Shown here: one piece after another, positions 4,418 to 51,820 of the stretch
Position numbering within the stretch: position 1 is the stretch's first letter
Layout of the letters: each line of letters starts with the position of its first letter
Source of the DNA: Mycoplana rhizolycopersici
GTDB taxonomy: Bacteria > Pseudomonadota > Alphaproteobacteria > Rhizobiales > Rhizobiaceae
Direction: 5' to 3'
Length of the DNA: 64,000 bases
Assembly: GCF_013378445.1 (NCBI RefSeq)
Contig: NZ_JABXYK010000003.1
Location: 310,001-374,000 of the forward strand
Made by a program: the position numbers and the translations under genes
The notes under the pieces: model-generated
Told to the model about the DNA's origin: nothing
Seen by the model: the letters and a program-made list of their open reading frames with translations, nothing else
Database searches by the model: none

Positions 4418-4905
4418 TGCTCGATTCCAGGGACATCATTGTCTGCAAAGCACTTCTAGCAGAAGAAGCTTGCCTTTGCCTTGCGAAATATTGGCCATAG
4501 CGATTTCCGGCCTAGCGAATCTTAGGGATGCCGGAGAACGGCCAAGGCCCGATCGCCGCGCGGGGCCTCCGGTTCCGGGCCTGGGCGCCCCATCAAAGTA
4601 CAGATCCGGTAGGCGCCATTAACTTTCACGCAAGGAATTAACCATAAACATGGATCAACGCGTCGGAATGGGAACTTGCACCATTTCCCACTCAGGCATG
4701 ATGCCGTACCGCCCGTACCGGTTTCGACCCGGTATCAAGCTTCACCGAATCTGCCCGTGGATGGGCGCCTGGCTGCCTTGTCGCTGCCGGCCTACGCGAC
4801 TTTGCCTGCTGGCTGCAGGTAACGGGCGCGCAATCCTCCCATCGGCTGTTCACCGGCTTGGCCAGCAATTGGCCGGGAAAATGCATCGTGCGTGGAGACT
4901 GGAAA
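4418..4905 (+). other. Gap and probable 5' leader of the chemotaxis operon
   Basis: No convincing gene is seen here. The segment contains a GC-rich block (about 4540-4600), the candidate promoter element at 4631-4647, and a short perfect hairpin in the presumed leader (TACCGG 4716-4721, loop of 7, CCGGTA 4729-4734) that has no U-tract, so it is not a terminator. Open frames crossing this stretch are Arg/Pro/Cys-rich and have no ribosome-binding site. If the element at 4631 is the promoter, the icpA leader is about 250 bases long. Confidence 0.45.
4631..4647 (+). promoter_or_regulatory. Candidate class II flagellar/chemotaxis promoter element, che operon (weak match)
   Basis: CAAGGAA-TTAACC-ATAA preceded by TTTCACG. 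It fits the recurring element CTCRCRCAAGTTT-N6-CTAG in its CACGCAAG half and its 6-base gap, but the second half is ATAA instead of CTAG. It lies about 260 bases before the icpA start. Confidence 0.4.
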
Positions 4906-6495
4906 GTGCAGGAAGTGCCAGCAGAACAAACTCAGACGGGGCAGGCGGCCAGCCTTCGCGACCGTTTGAGATTCGCTGGCCTCGAACCGTCCCACGGCGA
5001 GGTGCTGCGCCATCACCGCCAGACGCTGGAGCGGCACGTCGAAACTGCGCTCCGCGACCTCTTTCACCGCTTCCAGTCCTATCCGGACGCTGCGCGCCTC
5101 TTCCAGAGCGAGCGCGCGATCGACCGTCTTCATGACCTTCACGCCTCGCACTGGAGCGTGCTGACCGATGCGCGCTTCGACGGCCTCTATGCCGAGCGCG
5201 TCAAGGTCCTGGCGGACGCAGAGAGCCAGATGGGCCTCGATCCGCGCTGGCGCCTGTCCGGCCAGACGGTCGTCCTCGAACACGTCATCGACGGCCTCAT
5301 CGAGGAATACTGGCCGAAGTCACTGCTTTCCGGCGCGCGCAATCCGCGGCGCAAGGAGCTTTCCGATATCCTCACCGCCTTCGTGCGCGTCGCCATGGTC
5401 GATGCCGAGATCGGCGTGTCGCTGCGTTTCAACGAGCTGCGCCACAGCCATCATCGCGCCATGGGCGAACAGCGCCAGGCCGATCACGGCGCGCTCGATA
5501 CCGCCTTCGGCGAGGTCATCCGCAGCCTGGCCAATCTCGATTTCACCCACAAGACCGGCGAGCAGATGCCTGATAGCTGGCGCGAGCTGGCCGGTTCGCT
5601 CGACGGCGCGCTTGAAGACATCGGGCAACATCTTGCCGCCGCCGCCGAACGCGGCGACGCATCCGACGCGATGTCGCAGGCCCTCTCCGCGCAGGCAAAC
5701 CAGCTTGCCGAGCGGTCAGCCGCACAATCCGCGAGCCTTGCAGGCACGGCCTCGACGCTGGGCGACATTACCGGCAGGCTCAAGGCCAATCTTGGCGAGA
5801 CGCGCAAGGCGGAGGACGCGGCGCAATCGACCCGCAGCTCGGCCGAGCAGAGCGGCCGCATCGTCGGCGAAGCGATGTCGGCCATGGCCGATATCGAGGC
5901 CTCGGCCGAAAAGATCGGCCAGATCATTGGCGTGATCGACGAGATCGCCTTCCAGACCAATCTCCTGGCGCTGAACGCGGGCATCGAAGCCGCACGTGCC
6001 GGCGACAGCGGCCGCGGCTTTGCCGTCGTAGCCCAGGAAGTCCGTGCACTGGCGCAGCGATCGGCAGATGCCGCCCGCGAGATCAAGCAACTCGTCACCG
6101 GCACCAAGGCGCAGGTCGAGGCCGGCGTGGACCGCGTCAACCGCACGCAGGATGCGATCGGCGGCATCGTTCAGCAGGTCACCGGAATAAACGACGCGAT
6201 CGCCGGCATTGCGCGGCGTAGCGGCGAGGAAATGGCCGGGCTCGAAGCGGTCGCCGGCGAACTCGGCAGGCTCGGCACCCAGGCCGGCGCCGACAGCGAG
6301 CTTGCGAGCAGCATTGGCCGCTCGGGTGAGGATTTACAGATGGTGATCCTCGAACTGGGCCGGACGATCCGGAAGTTTCACGTCCGCCAGCCGGCTCCGG
6401 CAGGCGACGCTTCCGCGCGCCCGGCGCGGGGCGTCCAGGAGCTTTCGCGGATGGCCGTTCCGGCGCCCGCCCGCGCCATCGGCTATGGGGGATGA
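4906..6495 (+). CDS. icpA: Soluble chemoreceptor IcpA/McpE, globin-coupled-sensor type
   Basis: A 529-residue cytoplasmic methyl-accepting chemotaxis protein with no membrane segment or HAMP domain. GTG at 4906 is chosen because GGAG ends 8 bases before it; the frame stays open further upstream. Residues about 15-180 fit the globin-coupled sensor pattern (LHDLHASHW, then [10 protein letters not shown]). The C-terminal half is the signalling hairpin, with the tip [20 protein letters not shown] near nt 5938-6000. In the globin part the residue aligned with the haem-binding proximal His is Glu106, so haem binding is doubtful. No NWETF-like CheR tether is present at the C-terminus. It is the first gene of the che operon, as in S. 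meliloti. Confidence 0.88.
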
Positions 6496-13503: not shown

Positions 13504-13632
13504 CCCGAAAGTGCCGGGCGATCCGCCACATTTTGGTAAACACTTGAATCGTCGAGAAAATAGCAGATTGTGAGCCTGGACGGGCCGGATACTGGCCGTC
13601 CCGTCGCGCCTTGTTCCCGCGAAACGCTCGCG

Positions 13633-26612: not shown

Positions 26613-26682
26613 CGTTTCTGTCGCCTGAAATGCCTGGAAATTCGGGAGCCAGCGAAAAGGTGAGATCCCGGCAAGTCCCACG

Positions 26683-26699: not shown

Positions 26700-26729
26700 G
26701 TTCAGGTCAACAAAATGGAGTTTGCCGCC

Positions 26730-27110
26730 ATGCAACCAATTCAATTCTTCGAGCTGGCTTCCAAGCAGGCCGATTGGCTCGCTGTGCGCCAGTCCGTGGT
26801 TGCCGGAAACATCGCCAATGCCAATACTCCCGGCTACCACGCGAAGGACGTGACGCCCTTCCAGTCGGTCCTTGAAAAGACTGGCATCCAGATGGCGGCC
26901 ACCAATCCGATGCATTTCACGGAAGGTTCGCTCAGTAACGAGGTGACTGATGTCTCCGCCAACGAAGACGTCGGCGTCCAGATCTCAGGCAATTCCGTGG
27001 GGCTTGCGGAAGAACTGATGAAGCAGGGCCAGGTCAAGCGCGAGTACGAACTCAATGCCGGCCTGGTCAAGGCGTTTCATCGCATGATGCTGATGACTGT
27101 CAGGACGTAA
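26730..27110 (+). CDS. flgB: Flagellar proximal rod protein FlgB
   Basis: A 126-residue rod protein. ATG 26730 ([13 protein letters not shown]) is chosen because GGAG lies 9 bases before it; an ATG at 26715 would add five residues. The N-terminal rod motif [19 protein letters not shown] and the C-terminal [17 protein letters not shown] are typical. It is the first gene of the long operon flgB-flgC-fliE-flgG-flgA-flgI-motE-flgH-fliL-fliP. Confidence 0.93.
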
Positions 27111-31604: not shown

Positions 31605-32111
31605 ATGGCGGACCTGGAACAGGGCGGCGAAAGCAAGAAGAAGCCATCGCTGGTCATAACGATCGCAATCATCGCCGGTCTGAGCGTCGTTGCCGGTGGT
31701 GGCGGCTGGCTGGTCGGGAACATGCTGGCGCCGCCACCATCCGAGACGGCGCCGGTAGAGAAGGCGGCCGCCGAAGGCGAACAGAAGACGGGCGACGAGG
31801 GCGAGATCGTCCGCGTCGCAACGGAAGCAAACGGCATCGTCGCGCTGGAGCCCTTCACCAGCAACCTCGCCTATCCCGCCGACAACCTTGTTCGCATGGA
31901 AGTTGCCCTTGTCTTCAAGGGGCAGCCTGACCCGGTTCTGGCCGAAGCGATCCACCAGGACATCATGGCCTATATGCGCACAGTGTCGCTGCAGCAGATC
32001 CAGGGGCCGCGCGGCTTTCAATATCTACGGGACGACCTGAAGGAGCGGGTTGACCTTCGATCGGAAGGGCGCGTAACGAACATCATGTTCCGAACCTTTG
32101 TGATCGAATGA
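31605..32111 (+). CDS. fliL: Flagellar basal-body protein FliL
   Basis: A 168-residue stator-associated inner-membrane protein. ATG 31605 gives MADLEQGGESKKKPSLVITI, with a single transmembrane segment at residues about 15-36. The C-terminal periplasmic domain contains NLVRMEVALVFKG and LKERVDLRSEGRVTNIMFRT. The frame continues upstream into flgH, but without family character. It overlaps fliP by 4 bases. Confidence 0.93.
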   Translation: MADLEQGGESKKKPSLVITIAIIAGLSVVAGGGGWLVGNMLAPPPSETAPVEKAAAEGEQKTGDEGEIVRVATEANGIVALEPFTSNLAYPADNLVRMEVALVFKGQPDPVLAEAIHQDIMAYMRTVSLQQIQGPRGFQYLRDDLKERVDLRSEGRVTNIMFRTFVIE

Positions 32112-32848
32112 TTCGATTTTTTTCGACGACCTTCGTCGCCCTTGTGGCGATGACCAGCCTTGCGTACGCCCAGCAGACGCCGGCCCAACTGCTCAATACG
32201 CCCATCGACGGTTCGGTGGCGTCCTGGATCATCCGCACATTCGGTCTTCTGACCGTGCTTTCGGTCGCTCCCGGTATCCTGATCATGGTGACGAGCTTTC
32301 CGCGTTTCGTCATCGCCTTTGCGATCCTTCGCTCCGGCATGGGGCTTGCGACGACGCCGTCGAACATGATCCTAGTCAGCCTGGCGCTGTTCATGACCTT
32401 CTACGTCATGGCGCCCACCTTCGATCGAGCCTGGCAGAGCGGCATAGAGCCGCTGATTGCAAACCAGATCGACGAGACGGAAGCGGCAAAGCGCGTCGCC
32501 GAGCCGTTCCGCGAGTTCATGACGGCGAACACCCGTGAGAAGGATCTGCAGCTCTTCGTCTCGCTTGCCGAGGAGCGGGGCCAGACGGTGGTCGTCGACG
32601 GCAAGGTCGATCTCCGCGCCGTCATCCCGGCCTTCATGATCTCCGAAATCCGGCGCGGCTTCGAGATCGGCTTCCTCGTTGTTCTGCCTTTCCTGGTGAT
32701 CGACCTGATCGTTGCCACGATCACCATGGCGATGGGCATGATGATGCTGCCGCCAACCTCGATCTCCTTGCCCTTCAAGATCCTCTTCTTCGTCCTCATC
32801 GACGGCTGGAACCTCCTGGTCGGCAGCCTCGTCCGCTCGTTCCAATAA
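32108..32848 (+). CDS. fliP: Flagellar export gate protein FliP
   Basis: A 246-residue core membrane component of the type III export gate. It has an N-terminal signal sequence (FVALVAMTSLAYA), then four hydrophobic segments. The hallmarks MVTSFPRFVIAFAILRSGMG, VIPAFMISEIRRGFEIGFLV and MGMMMLPPTSISLPFKILFF are all present. It is the last gene of its operon; no fliO was seen next to it. Confidence 0.96.
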   Translation: MIRFFSTTFVALVAMTSLAYAQQTPAQLLNTPIDGSVASWIIRTFGLLTVLSVAPGILIMVTSFPRFVIAFAILRSGMGLATTPSNMILVSLALFMTFYVMAPTFDRAWQSGIEPLIANQIDETEAAKRVAEPFREFMTANTREKDLQLFVSLAEERGQTVVVDGKVDLRAVIPAFMISEIRRGFEIGFLVVLPFLVIDLIVATITMAMGMMMLPPTSISLPFKILFFVLIDGWNLLVGSLVRSFQ

Positions 32849-33015: not shown

Positions 33016-33045
33016 AAAGCCCCGTATTGACCGATACGGGGCTTT
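33016..33045. terminator. Bidirectional terminator between fliP and the GT41 gene
   Basis: Perfect 12-base inverted repeat AAAGCCCCGTAT / ATACGGGGCTTT around TGACCG. It has A and T runs on both sides and serves the converging units. Confidence 0.85.
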
Positions 33046-33069: not shown

Positions 33070-34995
33070 TTACTGGAAGCGCGTCGTCCGGGGCGGCAGC
33101 GCGGGTACGTCGAAGTGATCCGGTTCCAGCCCGTTGCGGGCGCGATCGGCCATCGTCTCGTAGGCCGTCTCCAGATGGCGGCAGAACCGCTCGGAATCGA
33201 ACAGCGGTGCGATCAACAGGTTTTCCGCCAGCTTCGATTTGTAGCCGGCGACCCGATCAGGATTTTCGTAGCAGGCGATCGCCTCCTTGACATAGGCCGA
33301 CGGGTCGGCCGTCACCAGCTCCGGCAGTCCGATGGCATTCAAGAGGCTTTCGCTGACGCGCGAAGCGAAGTTCGTGCCCTTCATGGCAATGACGGGGAGA
33401 CCGCCCCAAAGCTGCTCCGACGTCGTGGTGTGGCCGTTGTAGGGGAAGGTATCGAGGCCGACGTCGGCGGCCTGCAGCCGGTTGAGGTGCTGCTCGTAGC
33501 TCACCTTCGGGGTGAAGATGATTCGCCTTGGCGAGATGCCTTCGGATTCGAACTTGTTCTCGATGTTGATCCGCGAGCGTTCGGACGTCGTCAAGAGAAG
33601 CAGGCTGCTGTTCTTCGCTCGCTTGAGGATCTTGACCCAGAGATTGATGACCTCGAGGGAGATCTTGCGATTGTTGTTGAACGAGGCGAAGAGGAAGGTG
33701 TCTTCCGGCAGGCCGAGTTCCGCGCGGCTGTGCGGCGTCAGCGGTGACCGGTTGACCGGATCGTTCGGCTGGTAGGTGTCCGGCAGGCGGCAGAACTTCT
33801 CGTGATAGTACGGCTTGGAGGTGTCCTGCAGCACGTAATGGTCGCCGATGACGTAATCGAGATCGACGTTGAGCGTCGATCCGGGAAAGCCGAGCCAGGC
33901 GACCTGGACCGGTGCGGTCGGATAGCTGAGGATGCCGGGCCGCGCGTCTTTCGTATGGCCCTTCATCTCGACGAGGATGTCGATCCCGTGCGCCCGGATG
34001 GTCGCCGCAGCCTCTTCGTCGGACATGTCGAGGATGGAGACGACGTTGCCCCATGTGCTGCGATCCGCCGTGTTCCGTTCCAGCAGCCTTGCAGGGGTGT
34101 AGCAGAACAGCGTGATCTCGAAGCGCTCGCGATCATGGCGCTCCAGCACGTTGCGCAGCAGCTTCATCGTCGCGTGCAGGTCCCAGAAGTCCGAGGACAG
34201 GTAGCCGATCCTGATCTTGTCGGACCATGTATGCGGCATCTGCCGGCGGAGCGCGGTCGTTTCCGGCGCCGCGGCCCGGATCGTGTACTGCGACAGACTG
34301 TTGATCTTCTCGTCGCCGCACCAGTTCAGGTTGAACCAGGGGTGTTCACGGGAGAGATCTGCGAGATCGCCCTTGGCATAGGCCTTGTCGAGCAGCGGCT
34401 GGTGCTTTTCGATTGCAACGTAGTCGTTCAGCTCCCGCGCCTGCGTGAGATAGACGCTGCGGATGCCTGTGTTGCCGGGCGCGCCTTGCAGAACCTTCTG
34501 GGTCGTCAGGTAATTGTTCTCGTCGGCGAGGTGCTCGGTCAGCAGCTGACCGGCCAGGGCTATGTGCTCCGGCTTGCCACTGGTGATCAGCGGCTTTCTC
34601 AGTCCTTCGAGGATGTCGCGTTCGCCGCGCTTCAGGAAGATTGTCGCCAGGACAAAAGCTACGTCCGGATCGTTCGGATCCTTCTCGAAGAGCCGCTTGC
34701 CGGAGACGAGTGCTTCGTCCTCGTTGCCGCATTCGAGATGAAGGGTCATCGCCTGCTTGCGGTACTCCGTGGAGTGGGCGTCGTCATAGCTCGCGGCGAC
34801 TTCGAAGATGGAGGCTGCATCGGACCGCAGGCCGATCTTGGCGAAAGTCTTCGCCAGCAGCGCATAGGTCTTTCCGTCCTTCTGGATGTCGAGCAGCTTG
34901 TTCAGCGTATGCAGGGCCTGTCGGTATTCGCCCTTCTGGTATTCCAGCGAAGCGATCGAAAACGAGACTTTCGGGTTCAACTGCGGGTGCTCCAT
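33070..34995 (-). CDS. TPR-containing GT41 (OGT-type) glycosyltransferase, probable flagellin-modifying enzyme
   Basis: A 641-residue soluble protein. The N-terminal ~190 residues are TPR-like repeats (SLEYQKGEYRQALHTLNKLL and following). The C-terminal part matches family GT41, the SPINDLY/OGT type: RIGYLSSDFWDLHATMKLL, GHTKDARPGILSYPTAPVQV, WLGFPGSTLNVDLDYVIGDH, SFNNNRKISLEVINLWVKIL, and LDTFPYNGHTTTSEQLWGGL followed by ASRVSESLLNAIGL. These parallel the nucleotide-sugar-binding segments of OGT, including the Lys after FN and the HTT triplet. ATG 34995 is preferred over 35049 because the promoter element ends at 35063. The gene lies beside the flagellins and carries the flagellar element, so flagellin is the likely acceptor (inference). 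S. meliloti, as I recall, has no gene here. Confidence 0.85.
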   Translation of the reverse strand: MEHPQLNPKVSFSIASLEYQKGEYRQALHTLNKLLDIQKDGKTYALLAKTFAKIGLRSDAASIFEVAASYDDAHSTEYRKQAMTLHLECGNEDEALVSGKRLFEKDPNDPDVAFVLATIFLKRGERDILEGLRKPLITSGKPEHIALAGQLLTEHLADENNYLTTQKVLQGAPGNTGIRSVYLTQARELNDYVAIEKHQPLLDKAYAKGDLADLSREHPWFNLNWCGDEKINSLSQYTIRAAAPETTALRRQMPHTWSDKIRIGYLSSDFWDLHATMKLLRNVLERHDRERFEITLFCYTPARLLERNTADRSTWGNVVSILDMSDEEAAATIRAHGIDILVEMKGHTKDARPGILSYPTAPVQVAWLGFPGSTLNVDLDYVIGDHYVLQDTSKPYYHEKFCRLPDTYQPNDPVNRSPLTPHSRAELGLPEDTFLFASFNNNRKISLEVINLWVKILKRAKNSSLLLLTTSERSRINIENKFESEGISPRRIIFTPKVSYEQHLNRLQAADVGLDTFPYNGHTTTSEQLWGGLPVIAMKGTNFASRVSESLLNAIGLPELVTADPSAYVKEAIACYENPDRVAGYKSKLAENLLIAPLFDSERFCRHLETAYETMADRARNGLEPDHFDVPALPPRTTRFQ

Positions 34996-35062
34996 TCGAA
35001 CTGGTGGCTGTTTGCAGCGATTCGCGATCGATCGCGCCTCGCCGCACATGGGTCGGGGAACC

Positions 35063-35079
35063 GTACCCGGTGAACCTTG
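35063..35079 (-). promoter_or_regulatory. Candidate class II flagellar promoter element, GT41 gene
   Basis: Read on the minus strand: CCGCG-CAAGGTT-CACCGG-GTAC. It is close to the fliF copy (CGCG-CAAGTTT-CACCGA-CTAG), with the same 6-base gap. It ends 68 bases before ATG 34995. Confidence 0.5.
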
Positions 35080-35173
35080 CGCGGGTCAGTCGCCCGGCGA
35101 TTCCGGGGGGCAAAAATATGGTTAAAATTATATTCAAGATAAGCTTTCGCTCTTAACCATATAAACTTCACAT

Positions 35174-35384: not shown

Positions 35385-36251
35385 ATGTCTAGCATCATGA
35401 CGAACTCTTCGGCTCTCTCGGCTCTCGCCACGCTGCGTTCGATCAACAACGACATGGAGACCACCCAGGATCGTATTTCGACCGGCTACCGCGTTGGCGC
35501 TGCCAAGGACAACGCCGCTTACTGGTCGATCGCCACCACCATGCGTTCGGACAACCAGGCGATCTCGTCGGTTGAAGACGCACTCGGCATGGGCGCCGCC
35601 AAGGTCGACGTAGCTTACGCCGGTATCGAAGCTGCAATCGACATCGTCTCGGAAATCAAGTCGAAGGTCACCGCGGCCAACGAAGAAGGCATCGACAAGT
35701 CCAAGGTCCAGGAAGAAATCAACCAGCTGAAGAAGCAGCTGCTGTCGGTTGCGACGGGCGCTTCCTTCAACGGCGAAAACTGGCTGGTTCCGGATGGCAC
35801 CGCTGCCAAGACCGTCGTCACCGGCTTCGTCCGTGACGCCGACGGTGGCGTCAAGGTCACCACCGAAAGCTACGACGCCTCTACCAATGCGCTGTTCACC
35901 GACACCACCGGCACCGGCGGTATCCTGGGCGACATCTATGCTGACAGCTGGACCGTTGACTCCACCGGCGCCGACCTCGAACAGATGCTGACCGACGTCC
36001 AGACGGCTCTCGACTCACTCCAGACGGCCGGCTCGGCCCTGGGTTCGCTGTCCAAGCGCGTCGAACTGCAAGGCGATTTCGCATCCAAGCTGAGCGACGC
36101 GCTCGAGAAGGGTGTTGGCCGCCTCGTTGATGCGGATATGAACGAGGAATCGACGAGGCTTAAGGCTCTGCAGACGCAGCAGCAGCTCGGCATTCAGGCC
36201 CTGTCGATCGCCAACTCCAACTCGCAGAACATCCTGTCGCTCTTCCGTTAA
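35385..36251 (+). CDS. flaA: Flagellin FlaA
   Basis: A 288-residue flagellin, the shortest of the four. The conserved N-terminal half (TLRSINNDMETTQDRISTGY, DNAAYWSIATTMRSDNQAIS) and C-terminus (LVDADMNEESTRLKALQTQQ, then LGIQALSIANSNSQNIL) frame a short variable centre (residues about 130-200). AAGGGA precedes the ATG by 8 bases. By position it is flaA, the essential subunit of S. meliloti flagella. It has Arg-Ile-Ser-Thr-Gly-Tyr where the other three have Arg-Val-Ser-Ser-Gly. It has its own leader and terminator. Confidence 0.95.
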   Translation: MSSIMTNSSALSALATLRSINNDMETTQDRISTGYRVGAAKDNAAYWSIATTMRSDNQAISSVEDALGMGAAKVDVAYAGIEAAIDIVSEIKSKVTAANEEGIDKSKVQEEINQLKKQLLSVATGASFNGENWLVPDGTAAKTVVTGFVRDADGGVKVTTESYDASTNALFTDTTGTGGILGDIYADSWTVDSTGADLEQMLTDVQTALDSLQTAGSALGSLSKRVELQGDFASKLSDALEKGVGRLVDADMNEESTRLKALQTQQQLGIQALSIANSNSQNILSLFR

Positions 36252-36501: not shown

Positions 36502-37476
36502 ATGACGAGCATTCTGACCAACATCGCAGCCATGTCGGCACTCCAGACGCTGCGTTCGATCAACTCCAGCATGGAAGAAACCCAGGGTCGCGTATCCTCG
36601 GGCCAGCGCGTAGGTGAAGCTGCCGACAACGCCGCCTACTGGTCGATCGCCACCACCATGCGTTCGGACAACAAGGCAATTTCCGCCGTTCAGGACGCCC
36701 TCGGCCTCGGCGCCGCCAAGATCGATACCGCCTATGCCGGTATGGAAAGCGCCATCGACGTCGTTTCCGAGATCAAGGCCAAGGTCGTCGCCGCCACCGA
36801 GCAGGGCGTTGACAAGGCCAAGGTTCAGGAAGAAATCAAGCAGCTGCAGGACCAGCTCGTTTCGATCGCCAACGGCGCTTCCTTCAACGGCCAGAACTGG
36901 CTGGTATACGACAGCAACAACACTGCAGCCGACAACCCTGCCACCAAGACGGTCGTTTCCGGCTTCATCCGCAACGCCGACGGCACGGTTCTCACCAGCT
37001 CGACCGAATACGCGCTGACGGACGTCGTCGCCACCGGCGGCCCGTCGATGAACGTCCTTTTCCAGACCACGGACGGCACCGTCGGCGGCGGTATCCTGGG
37101 TACGGGTGCAGAAGACCTCGGCGTGACCGGCACGGCTGCGAACTTCTCCGCAAGCACCTCGATCCAGAGCATGGACATCACCGACTACACCGACGGTGAC
37201 ATGAGCCTTGCCCTCTCGCTGGTCGAAGCCGGTCTGAAGCTGATGCAGAGCGCTGCTTCGCAGCTCGGCTCGATCTCCATGCGCATCGATCTGCAGGAAG
37301 AGTTTGCAAACAAGCTGAGCGATGCAATCGACTCCGGTGTCGGCCGACTGGTCGACGCAGACATGAACGAGGAATCGACAAGGCTGAAGGCGCTGCAGAC
37401 CCAGCAACAGCTCGGCATCCAGTCGCTGTCGATCGCCAACTCCAACCCGGAAAACATCCTCTCGCTCTTCCGTTAA
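36502..37476 (+). CDS. flaB: Flagellin FlaB
   Basis: A 324-residue flagellin. The N-terminus MTSILTNIAAMSALQTLRSI and the C-terminus LVDADMNEESTRLKALQTQQ with LGIQSLSIANSNPENIL are as in the other copies. The central variable region (about residues 135-230) is longer than in FlaA and rich in Thr/Ser/Gly. AGGGG lies 8 bases before the ATG. The letter follows the S. meliloti order and may differ in other species. Confidence 0.93.
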   Translation: MTSILTNIAAMSALQTLRSINSSMEETQGRVSSGQRVGEAADNAAYWSIATTMRSDNKAISAVQDALGLGAAKIDTAYAGMESAIDVVSEIKAKVVAATEQGVDKAKVQEEIKQLQDQLVSIANGASFNGQNWLVYDSNNTAADNPATKTVVSGFIRNADGTVLTSSTEYALTDVVATGGPSMNVLFQTTDGTVGGGILGTGAEDLGVTGTAANFSASTSIQSMDITDYTDGDMSLALSLVEAGLKLMQSAASQLGSISMRIDLQEEFANKLSDAIDSGVGRLVDADMNEESTRLKALQTQQQLGIQSLSIANSNPENILSLFR

Positions 37477-37722: not shown

Positions 37723-38658
37723 ATGACCAGTATTCTGACCAACAATGCCGCAATGGCTGCTCTGCAGACGCTGCGCACCATCAACGACAGCATGGAAGAA
37801 ACGCAGGCGCGTGTCTCTTCCGGTCTGCGCGTCGGCTCCGCAGCCGACAACGCCGCCTACTGGTCGATCGCGACGACGATGCGCTCGGACAACAAGGCGC
37901 TCTCGGCAGTCGAGGATGCTCTCGGTCTCGGCGCCGCCAAGGTGGACACTGCCTATGCGGCGATGGAAAGCGCCAAGGACGTGGTCGAGGAAATCAAGGC
38001 CAAGGTCGTCGCGGCCACTGAGCAGGGCGTCGACAAGGCCAAGGTTCAGGAAGAAATTGGCCAGTTGCAGAAGCAGTTGATGTCGATTGCTGAATCGGCA
38101 TCCTTCAGCGGCGAGAACTGGATCGCCGGCGACGCCGCCGACAAGAGCGTGGTTTCGGGCTTCGTTCGTTCGTCGGGGGGCACCGTCTCCGTCACGACGA
38201 CCGGCTACACACTCAACGATGCGGCGACCGGCAATCTGCTATTTGGTGGCGATGGCAGCGGTGGCATCGATGCGACGAGTGGCATCGTCGGGACGACCAC
38301 GGCCTTCTCCGGCGGTTCGACCTTTTCCGTCTACACGCTGGACATCACCGCATTCACCGGCACCTACGTTGCCGTCAACATGGCCGAAGCGCTAAAACTG
38401 GTCGAGGACTCCTTCCAGGCGATCACCAGTGCTGCAGCCGAACTCGGCTCCATTTCCATGCGCATCGGTCTACAGGCCGACTTCGCCTCGAAGCTTAGCG
38501 ACTCGATCGATTCCGGTATCGGCAGACTTGTCGATGCGGACATGAACGAGGAATCGACCAGGTTGAAGGCGCTGCAGACGCAGCAACAGCTCGGCATCCA
38601 GTCGCTGTCGATCGCCAACACCAATTCCGAGAACATTCTCCAGCTCTTCCGTCAGTAA
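37723..38658 (+). CDS. flaD: Flagellin, third copy (FlaD by S. meliloti order)
   Basis: A 311-residue flagellin. ATG 37723 (MTSILTNNAAMAALQTLRTI) follows AAGGGG by 9 bases; a TTG at 37705 lies inside the ribosome-binding region and is rejected. The variable centre (about residues 140-225) is Ser/Thr/Gly-rich (GYTLNDAATG, GIDATSGIVGTTTAFSGGST). The ends are nearly identical to the neighbours. It ends in LQLFRQ, one residue longer than FlaA/FlaB. Confidence 0.92.
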   Translation: MTSILTNNAAMAALQTLRTINDSMEETQARVSSGLRVGSAADNAAYWSIATTMRSDNKALSAVEDALGLGAAKVDTAYAAMESAKDVVEEIKAKVVAATEQGVDKAKVQEEIGQLQKQLMSIAESASFSGENWIAGDAADKSVVSGFVRSSGGTVSVTTTGYTLNDAATGNLLFGGDGSGGIDATSGIVGTTTAFSGGSTFSVYTLDITAFTGTYVAVNMAEALKLVEDSFQAITSAAAELGSISMRIGLQADFASKLSDSIDSGIGRLVDADMNEESTRLKALQTQQQLGIQSLSIANTNSENILQLFRQ

Positions 38659-39003: not shown

Positions 39004-39975
39004 ATGGCCAGCATTTTGACCAACGCCGCCGCCATGGCAGCGCTGCAGACCCTGCGTACGATTGACAGAAGCCTCGAGACAACCCAGGCGCGCGTTTCTT
39101 CCGGCCAGCGCGTCGAAACGGCGGCGGATAACGCGGCCTACTGGTCGATTGCCACCACCATGCGGTCCGACAACCGCGCACTATCCACCGTTCAGGACGC
39201 ATTGGGACTGGGTGCTGCGAAAGTCGATACCGCCTATGCGGCGATGGAAAGCGCCATCGAGACGGTGCAGGAGATCAAGGCGAAGCTGGTCGCCGCCTAT
39301 GGCGTCGGTAACGACCGCGAAAAGATCCAGGAAGAGATCGAACAGTTGCAGGCGCAGCTCAAGAGCGTTGCCGAATCGGCCTCCTTCTCCGGCGAGAACT
39401 GGCTGCAGGAAAAGATCAGCACCAGCGCCTCGGCCACCGTCGCGACGACCGTTACCAAGCAGGTGGTCGCATCCTTCATCCGCAACTCCTCGGGCACCGT
39501 CGCCGTGACGACGGTCGACTACCCGCTGAACGATTCGACGGTGCTCTTCGACCTCGGCGGCGGCAATCTCGGCATTCTCGACAAGGAAGCGATGGACGGA
39601 ACCACCGCTCTCGGTTTCTCTGTCTCAACGCTCGACATCACCGATCTTGCCAGCGTGCAGACAGCGCTCGGCGCCGGCGCCACCGAGGAAGATGCCCTGG
39701 ACGCGATGATCAAGTTCATCGACGGCCAGTTGGAGGCAATGACGAGTGCCGCTTCCAGCCTTGGTTCTATCCAGAAGCGAATCGAGATGCAGGAGAACTT
39801 CGTCGCCACCTTGATCGATACGATCAAACAGGGTGTCGGGCGTCTGGTCGATGCAGACATGAACGAGGAATCGACCCGTCTGAAGGCGTTGCAGACCCAG
39901 CAACAACTCGGCATCCAGTCGCTTTCGATTGCCAACACCAATTCCGAAAACATCCTGCAGCTCTTCAGGCAGTAA
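39004..39975 (+). CDS. flaC: Flagellin, fourth copy (FlaC by S. meliloti order)
   Basis: A 323-residue flagellin. ATG 39004 (MASILTNAAAMAALQTLRTI) has AAGG 9 bases upstream. It differs from the others by EEIEQLQAQL and an insertion around residues 235-250 (LASVQTALGAGATEEDALDA). The C-terminus LVDADMNEESTRLKALQTQQ and NILQLFRQ is shared. Only hairpins without a U-tract follow it (39999-40017 and 40067-40101). Confidence 0.92.
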   Translation: MASILTNAAAMAALQTLRTIDRSLETTQARVSSGQRVETAADNAAYWSIATTMRSDNRALSTVQDALGLGAAKVDTAYAAMESAIETVQEIKAKLVAAYGVGNDREKIQEEIEQLQAQLKSVAESASFSGENWLQEKISTSASATVATTVTKQVVASFIRNSSGTVAVTTVDYPLNDSTVLFDLGGGNLGILDKEAMDGTTALGFSVSTLDITDLASVQTALGAGATEEDALDAMIKFIDGQLEAMTSAASSLGSIQKRIEMQENFVATLIDTIKQGVGRLVDADMNEESTRLKALQTQQQLGIQSLSIANTNSENILQLFRQ

Positions 39976-51783: not shown

Positions 51784-51820
51784 AGTCCGTCAGTCTTTCG
51801 TCGACGCTGCCACCCTCGCG

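Follow-up and report, generated by a model that had tools for sequence, protein, structure and literature searches.

In plant-associated bacteria the surface of the flagellar filament is exposed to the immune receptors of the plant and to phages that bind flagella. Flagellin is glycosylated in the cytoplasm by GmaR, which, like the Maf flagellin glycosyltransferases, belongs to a protein family other than GT41. Cytoplasmic glycosylation of flagellin is also described for the Maf enzymes and for FlmG of Caulobacter crescentus (CCNA_01524), a cytoplasmic protein in which a TPR end is joined to a GT-B end, which is regulated together with the flagellar genes, has flagellin as its proved acceptor and needs pseudaminic acid (PMC7591256).

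Flagellins of Rhizobium leguminosarum bv. viciae 3841 stain positive for glycoprotein, and those of 31 kDa run at ≈35 kDa; the 2010 study found no modified peptide, and the enzyme behind the glycosylation is not named in the passages of that paper drawn on here (PMC2936354). As far as excerpts of the open-licence literature go, none was found that attributes flagellin glycosylation in Rhizobium to a particular glycosyltransferase.

The GT41 gene and its flagellar surroundings

In the window, i.e. the whole stretch of 64,000 nt from Mycoplana rhizolycopersici analysed here, a gene coding for TPR repeats and a full GT41 region had been predicted between fliP and the flagellins, and Pfam confirmed this gene, fliP and four flagellins. 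The ORF from the first ATG lies on the minus strand (33070–35049, 659 aa) and holds all the GT41 segments originally read from it (SSDFWDLHATM, HTKDARPGILS and FNNNRKISLEV among others). Glyco_transf_41 (PF13844; 4.9e-64, 217 bits against a curated cut-off of 25) was the sole glycosyltransferase family matched by the protein, and a TPR_19 match above its own cut-off (1.5e-06, 28.8 bits against 25) joins TPR to the catalytic region; TPR_14 scored slightly below cut-off in the N-terminal region. The TPR-like part covers approximately residues 1–120 (34620..34980, minus strand) and the catalytic region, delimited by alignment to OGT structures and by 71 aligned sequences, approximately residues 254–603 (33172..34221, minus strand). 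The gene is the only GT41 in the whole genome (5.6 Mb, 78 contigs, 100% complete), and its closest named kin, at 97% protein identity, is that of Rhizobium subbaraonis (L003). In a maximum-likelihood tree built from the catalytic domains of 70 sequences (one of the 71 being too short to be included) it falls in a Rhizobiaceae clade of 19 members with support 100/99.

Translation probably starts at TTG 34980 rather than at the first ATG, giving, from Pfam and the comparison of starts, a gene at 33070..34980 (minus strand) and a protein of 636 aa, to which all residue numbers refer. This codon is preferred because of three observations among relatives. TTG or GTG occupies it in 13 of the 19 clade members, with ATG or GTG one codon earlier in four and CTG in two, and most of these start codons follow a GGAG-like stretch; R. 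subbaraonis has a Thr codon in place of the second ATG (34995); and locus L011 has GTG at the place of TTG 34980, with a stop codon two codons before it. The first ATG (35049), which R. subbaraonis retains, begins 13 nt after the upstream element described below, so that a nearly leaderless start there would be a less probable alternative.

fliP (32108..32848, plus strand; PF00813, 2.6e-74) is convergent with the GT gene, and a terminator-like inverted repeat, AAAGCCCCGTAT...ATACGGGGCTTT (33016..33045), was read by eye between the two. On the other side, divergent from the GT gene, stands the first flagellin (35385..36251), the likely substrate, followed on the same plus strand by the second (36502..37476), the third (37723..38658; start chosen at 37723, 37705 in the ORF list) and the fourth (39004..39975; start chosen at 39004, 38998 in the ORF list), all with Flagellin_N and Flagellin_C domains. 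The direct fliP-flagellin adjacency expected for Sinorhizobium meliloti was found in the one record inspected, where 270 bp free of annotated features separate the two genes. Record CP090106.1, titled S. meliloti Ak57 plasmid pSymB (3.72 Mb), carries the flagellar cluster and is probably a mislabelled chromosome. Near the chemotaxis-flagellar cluster of the window, positions 4858–6495 code for a protein with Protoglobin and MCP signalling domains, a predicted aerotaxis-type chemoreceptor.

Upstream of the GT gene lies the element GCAAGGTTCACCGGGTAC (35063–35080, minus strand), which pattern counts in the window and in the clade mark as a probable promoter element of the flagellar regulon. The pattern GCAAGKTTN7TAS is matched at four sites of the window, where shuffled sequence would give 0.02: at 13632 before fliF, at 26682 before an ORF (26715–27110) named flgB-like by eye, at 51820 before flhA and at 35080 (minus strand) before the GT gene; all four sites thus precede the GT gene or a flagellar gene, the flgB-like ORF included. 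The core GCAAG[CGT]T[TC] was scored in the loci of the relatives as well: 19/19 clade members have it no more than 160 nt from the start, at -73 to -137, as against 1/14 of the Rhizobiaceae relatives that fall outside the clade (by chance, 160 nt would hold 0.03); the Fisher p of 2.4e-8 overstates this difference, the patterns having been defined after the sites were seen and the clade members being related. In strain 3841 and in genome G664 the core also precedes the ORF that follows the flagellins. Membership of the flagellar regulon, proposed from the resemblance to the fliF copy, is strengthened by the element shared with fliF and flhA and by the conserved flagellin neighbour (see below); we infer that VisNR or Rem acts on the element.

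Active site and place within GT41

Animal OGT and Xanthomonas XcOGT are the solved structures that score highest, and they share with this protein the catalytic residues and the TPR plus GT-B build. Scored with a profile built from 19 relatives, animal OGT reached 330 bits, XcOGT 295, SPINDLY 245 and the N-glucosyltransferases 48, and the structures ranked in the order animal OGT, XcOGT, SPINDLY and TPR-GT41 5djs, with HMW1C-like enzymes far lower. SPINDLY, the plant GT41, belongs to the same family but is a weaker match than OGT (144 bits with the protein alone). The insert that separates the two catalytic lobes of animal OGT is absent here, the alignment falling into two separate stretches.

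The catalytic His, Lys and His and the GHTT donor loop are all present (H269, K439, H498, H517, T518, T519). Invariant in 19/19 clade members are H269, K439, N515, G516, H517, T518 and T519, and H498 is kept in 17/19, being Tyr in L032 and L034, so that the activity of these two enzymes may be altered. The flagellins at the L032 and L034 loci are unusually long (≈424 aa).

The OGT-type Asp of the animal motif GHTTGMD, originally read as Glu in this protein, is indeed replaced: in the alignment to structures the human OGT position, which we take to be D925, falls on E522 (codon 33415..33417, minus strand). In human OGT the residue at this position touches the nucleotide. The Glu as an oddity of a single protein was rejected, since it is found in 19/19 clade members; outside the clade the position is Asp in 48/50 sequences (16/17 other Rhizobiaceae and 32/33 others with a letter there; 71 aligned sequences, two gapped). 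Glu522 is a signature of the clade, one inherited change and not 19 events, and it may reflect the choice of donor. Together with the flagellin linkage, it sets this protein apart from animal OGT and XcOGT.

Flagellin adjacency, distribution and residency

Gene order was compared at 33 loci, the window and 32 relatives, with ≈1.5 kb around each GT gene. A flagellin adjoins the GT gene in 18 of them, always divergently, and the other 15 have no flagellin within ≈1.5 kb. The head-to-head arrangement characterizes 18/19 clade members against 0/14 full-length, single-copy Rhizobiaceae relatives outside the clade; L011, the one exception, has no flagellin within 1.5 kb nor within 16 kb (stretch L107), and none was found in 13–16 kb stretches around five of the other loci lacking one (L117 and L119–L122). 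On the tree, the label 'adjacent' (<800 bp) needs four changes against 18.3 in shuffles.

Adjacent GT41s also occur outside the clade, in L151 and L154, where they stand beside flbT-flaF (family f128), and in L108; in L155, of the same group as L151 and L154, the flagellin is slightly over 800 bp away, and a fourth, distant group, L109–L112, lies 1.4–2.8 kb from flagellins. Such scattered positions on the tree indicate that GT41s reached flagellin loci more than once. L151, L154 and L155 have NALTT for NGHTT, with Leu replacing the donor-loop His517, and no NeuB match was found in their genomes. Their setting, flbT-flaF with a flagellin, is FlmG-like, but their GT41s lie beyond a 100/100 branch from the clade, in a tree that does not include FlmG itself. 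At L108 (5742–6881, genome G001), a GT41 of a further branch is located between flagellin genes, on the opposite strand. Between GT41 and flagellins, L109 and L112 code for long ALTTAQ-repeat proteins (PF20080; 32 and 57 stretches), whose Thr-rich repeats could be a glycosylation acceptor. At L118 (5186–10202, genome G009) three GT41 genes stand in tandem, and the 15 kb examined there contain no flagellin. The idea that GT41 genes occur only beside flagellins was rejected, 26 of the 29 outside loci retrieved having no flagellin within ≈1.5 kb; related GT41s were found at 1e-60 in 115/385 Alphaproteobacteria genomes.

Any GT41 match was obtained in 62 of 247 sampled Rhizobiaceae genomes and FliP in 201, at least 139 of the latter having no GT41 match. 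In the genus of the window the gene is present in 4/7 genomes and absent from three, in one of which (G145) a flagellin follows fliP after ≈340 bp (L106). On both counts, flagella do not generally depend on the gene. The genus of G071 has it in 16/16 genomes, and the Rhizobium genus that includes G194 and R. leguminosarum/johnstonii 3841, searched with the L008 protein, shows a match in 148/148 and a strong one in 146/148 (E ≤7e-233). The other two, G733 and G736, have distant GT41s only, and theirs are also the two weakest flagellin matches of the 148 (1.3e-55 and 6.7e-75, the next being 3.0e-90), hinting at a joint loss or replacement of GT gene and flagellin; the two may simply be outlying species. 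Among the matches listed, 69 genomes have a flagellin entry, at ≤1,676 bp from the GT gene in 67 and at ≤493 bp in 52, the larger distances being upper bounds; for G774 and G778 the flagellin is, among the matches listed, on another contig only.

The gene had been described as looking like an acquired or retained extra, and the first of these readings did not hold: the GT gene is resident. Its composition equals that of its neighbours (GC3 0.835 vs 0.838 for fliP), its divergence tracks that of FliP (Mantel r 0.77, p 2e-4, over 16 loci that include some close kin), and it is near-universal in the two genera just mentioned. Compared with R. subbaraonis, dN/dS is 0.065 for the GT gene, 0.038 for fliP and 0.133 for the first flagellin, which denotes purifying selection. 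No relative was found in viral contigs, nor any plasmid relative covering 80% of the query.

Proposed function, sugar donor and alternative explanations

It is likely, and we hold this with good confidence, that the product, a member of the OGT branch of GT41, acts as a soluble flagellin O-glycosyltransferase in the cytoplasm. Expressed together with the flagellum from its GCAAG-type flagellar promoter, the enzyme would bind newly made flagellins through its TPR end, and its catalytic end would glycosylate Ser/Thr in the variable, surface-exposed centre of the flagellin before export, with an ordinary nucleotide sugar rather than a nonulosonic acid as donor. We infer the flagellin acceptor, the O-linkage, the donor, the timing and the location of the enzyme, whereas the flagellin acceptor is proved for FlmG.

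The original prediction of flagellin O-glycosylation gained from the 18/19 adjacency, the upstream element and the match with strain 3841, whose flagellins stain (PMC2936354), and was less well served by the Ser/Thr content of the flagellin centres, whose enrichment is not clean. The median Ser+Thr fraction was 0.286 at 17 loci with the gene vs 0.207 at 25 loci from genomes without GT41 (0.313 at seven with unlinked GT41s, 0.265 at five with other GT41s near). With-gene against without, p was 7e-4 when 25/25 gene-less loci were kept and 0.065 in a stricter extraction that kept 7/25, both values being uncorrected for kinship and L066, L085 and L092 being left out for lying at contig ends. The value is 0.274 for the window and 0.271 for R. 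subbaraonis, and in the genus of the window G054, with the gene, has 0.203, like the 0.194 of G145 without it. As a sign of the acceptor the enrichment is no more than suggestive.

The link with strain 3841 is made through genome G647, taken to be that strain because a flagellin gene of R. johnstonii 3841, the R. leguminosarum bv. viciae 3841 of the staining study (plasmid pRL11 NC_008384.1, 559993–560901), is identical to it over 909/909 bases (100%) at the same coordinates. Its GT gene (C1:764307–766220, minus strand) is 92% identical to L008, with the first flagellin of the array starting 486 bp away on the opposite strand and fliP on the other side; from flaA = RL0718, its locus tag would be RL0717. 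In R. leguminosarum bv. trifolii, Rt634_8 is FlgH and Rt634_12 is flaA (PMC4696191), a numbering that would leave room for one gene beyond fliL and fliP.

As for the donor, NeuB gave 0 matches in the 100% complete genome of the window, 9/14 control genomes being positive, and it was absent from 13/16 clade genomes tested (present in G194, G216 and G011). A nonulosonic acid donor is therefore unlikely for the clade, and UDP-GlcNAc or another nucleotide-activated hexose would be expected for the window. FlmG, invoked in the original prediction as a precedent, remains one for the modification of flagellin but not as a model of the donor.

What adjacency and a common promoter element show is flagellar co-regulation and not which protein is the acceptor, and outside the clade the same architecture is found away from flagellins, so the TPR end can serve other acceptors. 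The acceptor might then be some other flagellar protein (regulator, chaperone or hook protein), with flagellin adjacency due to common regulation only. This is unlikely, since it is the flagellin gene that adjoins in 18/19, fliP not adjoining the GT gene in L013, L014, L017 and L018, and since the 3841 flagellins themselves stain (PMC2936354). A main role as regulator, with transferase activity secondary, has its precedent in Listeria GmaR, an antirepressor and glycosyltransferase (PMC9638930) elsewhere titled a bifunctional O-GlcNAc transferase. We judge such a role very unlikely here: the main catalytic residues are kept under purifying selection, and in Rhizobium VisNR and Rem already belong to the flagellar cascade (PMC4696191).

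An HMW1C-kind N-glycosyltransferase acting on Asn rates lower still. The NCBIfam profile NGTferase (NF049992) does match, at 4.5e-09, but its 35.4 bits stay below a cut-off of 1000, and in the structure comparison the N-glucosyltransferases trail OGT by the wide gap given above. Least probable of all is that the gene is a sporadic insertion of recent origin that has no settled role. The gene is indeed missing from the S. meliloti record and from three genomes of its own genus, and GT41s are confined to about a quarter of the Rhizobiaceae sampled; this reading is largely refuted by the GC3, the Mantel correlation, the near-universal presence in two genera and the low dN/dS.

Returning to the flagellin O-glycosyltransferase, we lean, with some reserve, to a wider reading, in which the clade would be a separate, NeuB-independent kind of this enzyme (OGT-branch TPR-GT41 in which Glu replaces the Asp of the donor loop), established at the flagellar locus of almost all Rhizobium and responsible for the glycosylated flagellins of R. 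leguminosarum, GT41s having been drawn into flagellin loci repeatedly (in this clade, in the flbT-flaF group, at L108 and in L109–L112). If true, the role of FlmG would be performed by an OGT-branch clade without the nonulosonic acid pathway and core to Rhizobium, and cytoplasmic flagellin O-glycosylation would no longer be limited to nonulosonic acids but would include, in plant-associated bacteria, a reaction of the OGT type. It would also provide a simple bacterial relative of OGT with a known, abundant acceptor. For the glycosylation reported in 3841 in 2010 the candidate is a single gene whose position is fixed, in a strain that is standard in the laboratory.

In genome G171 (L115:1753–9769), a sugar-nucleotide stretch of eight ORFs is located between fliP and the GT gene, with NTP_transferase, GDP_Man_Dehyd, DegT aminotransferase, Epimerase and dTDP_sugar_isom matches, a glycosyltransferase matched weakly, a DUF4422 protein and an eighth protein that matched nothing. 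This is a likely flagellin glycosylation island, and its gene content suggests that in that species the first sugar may be built upon.
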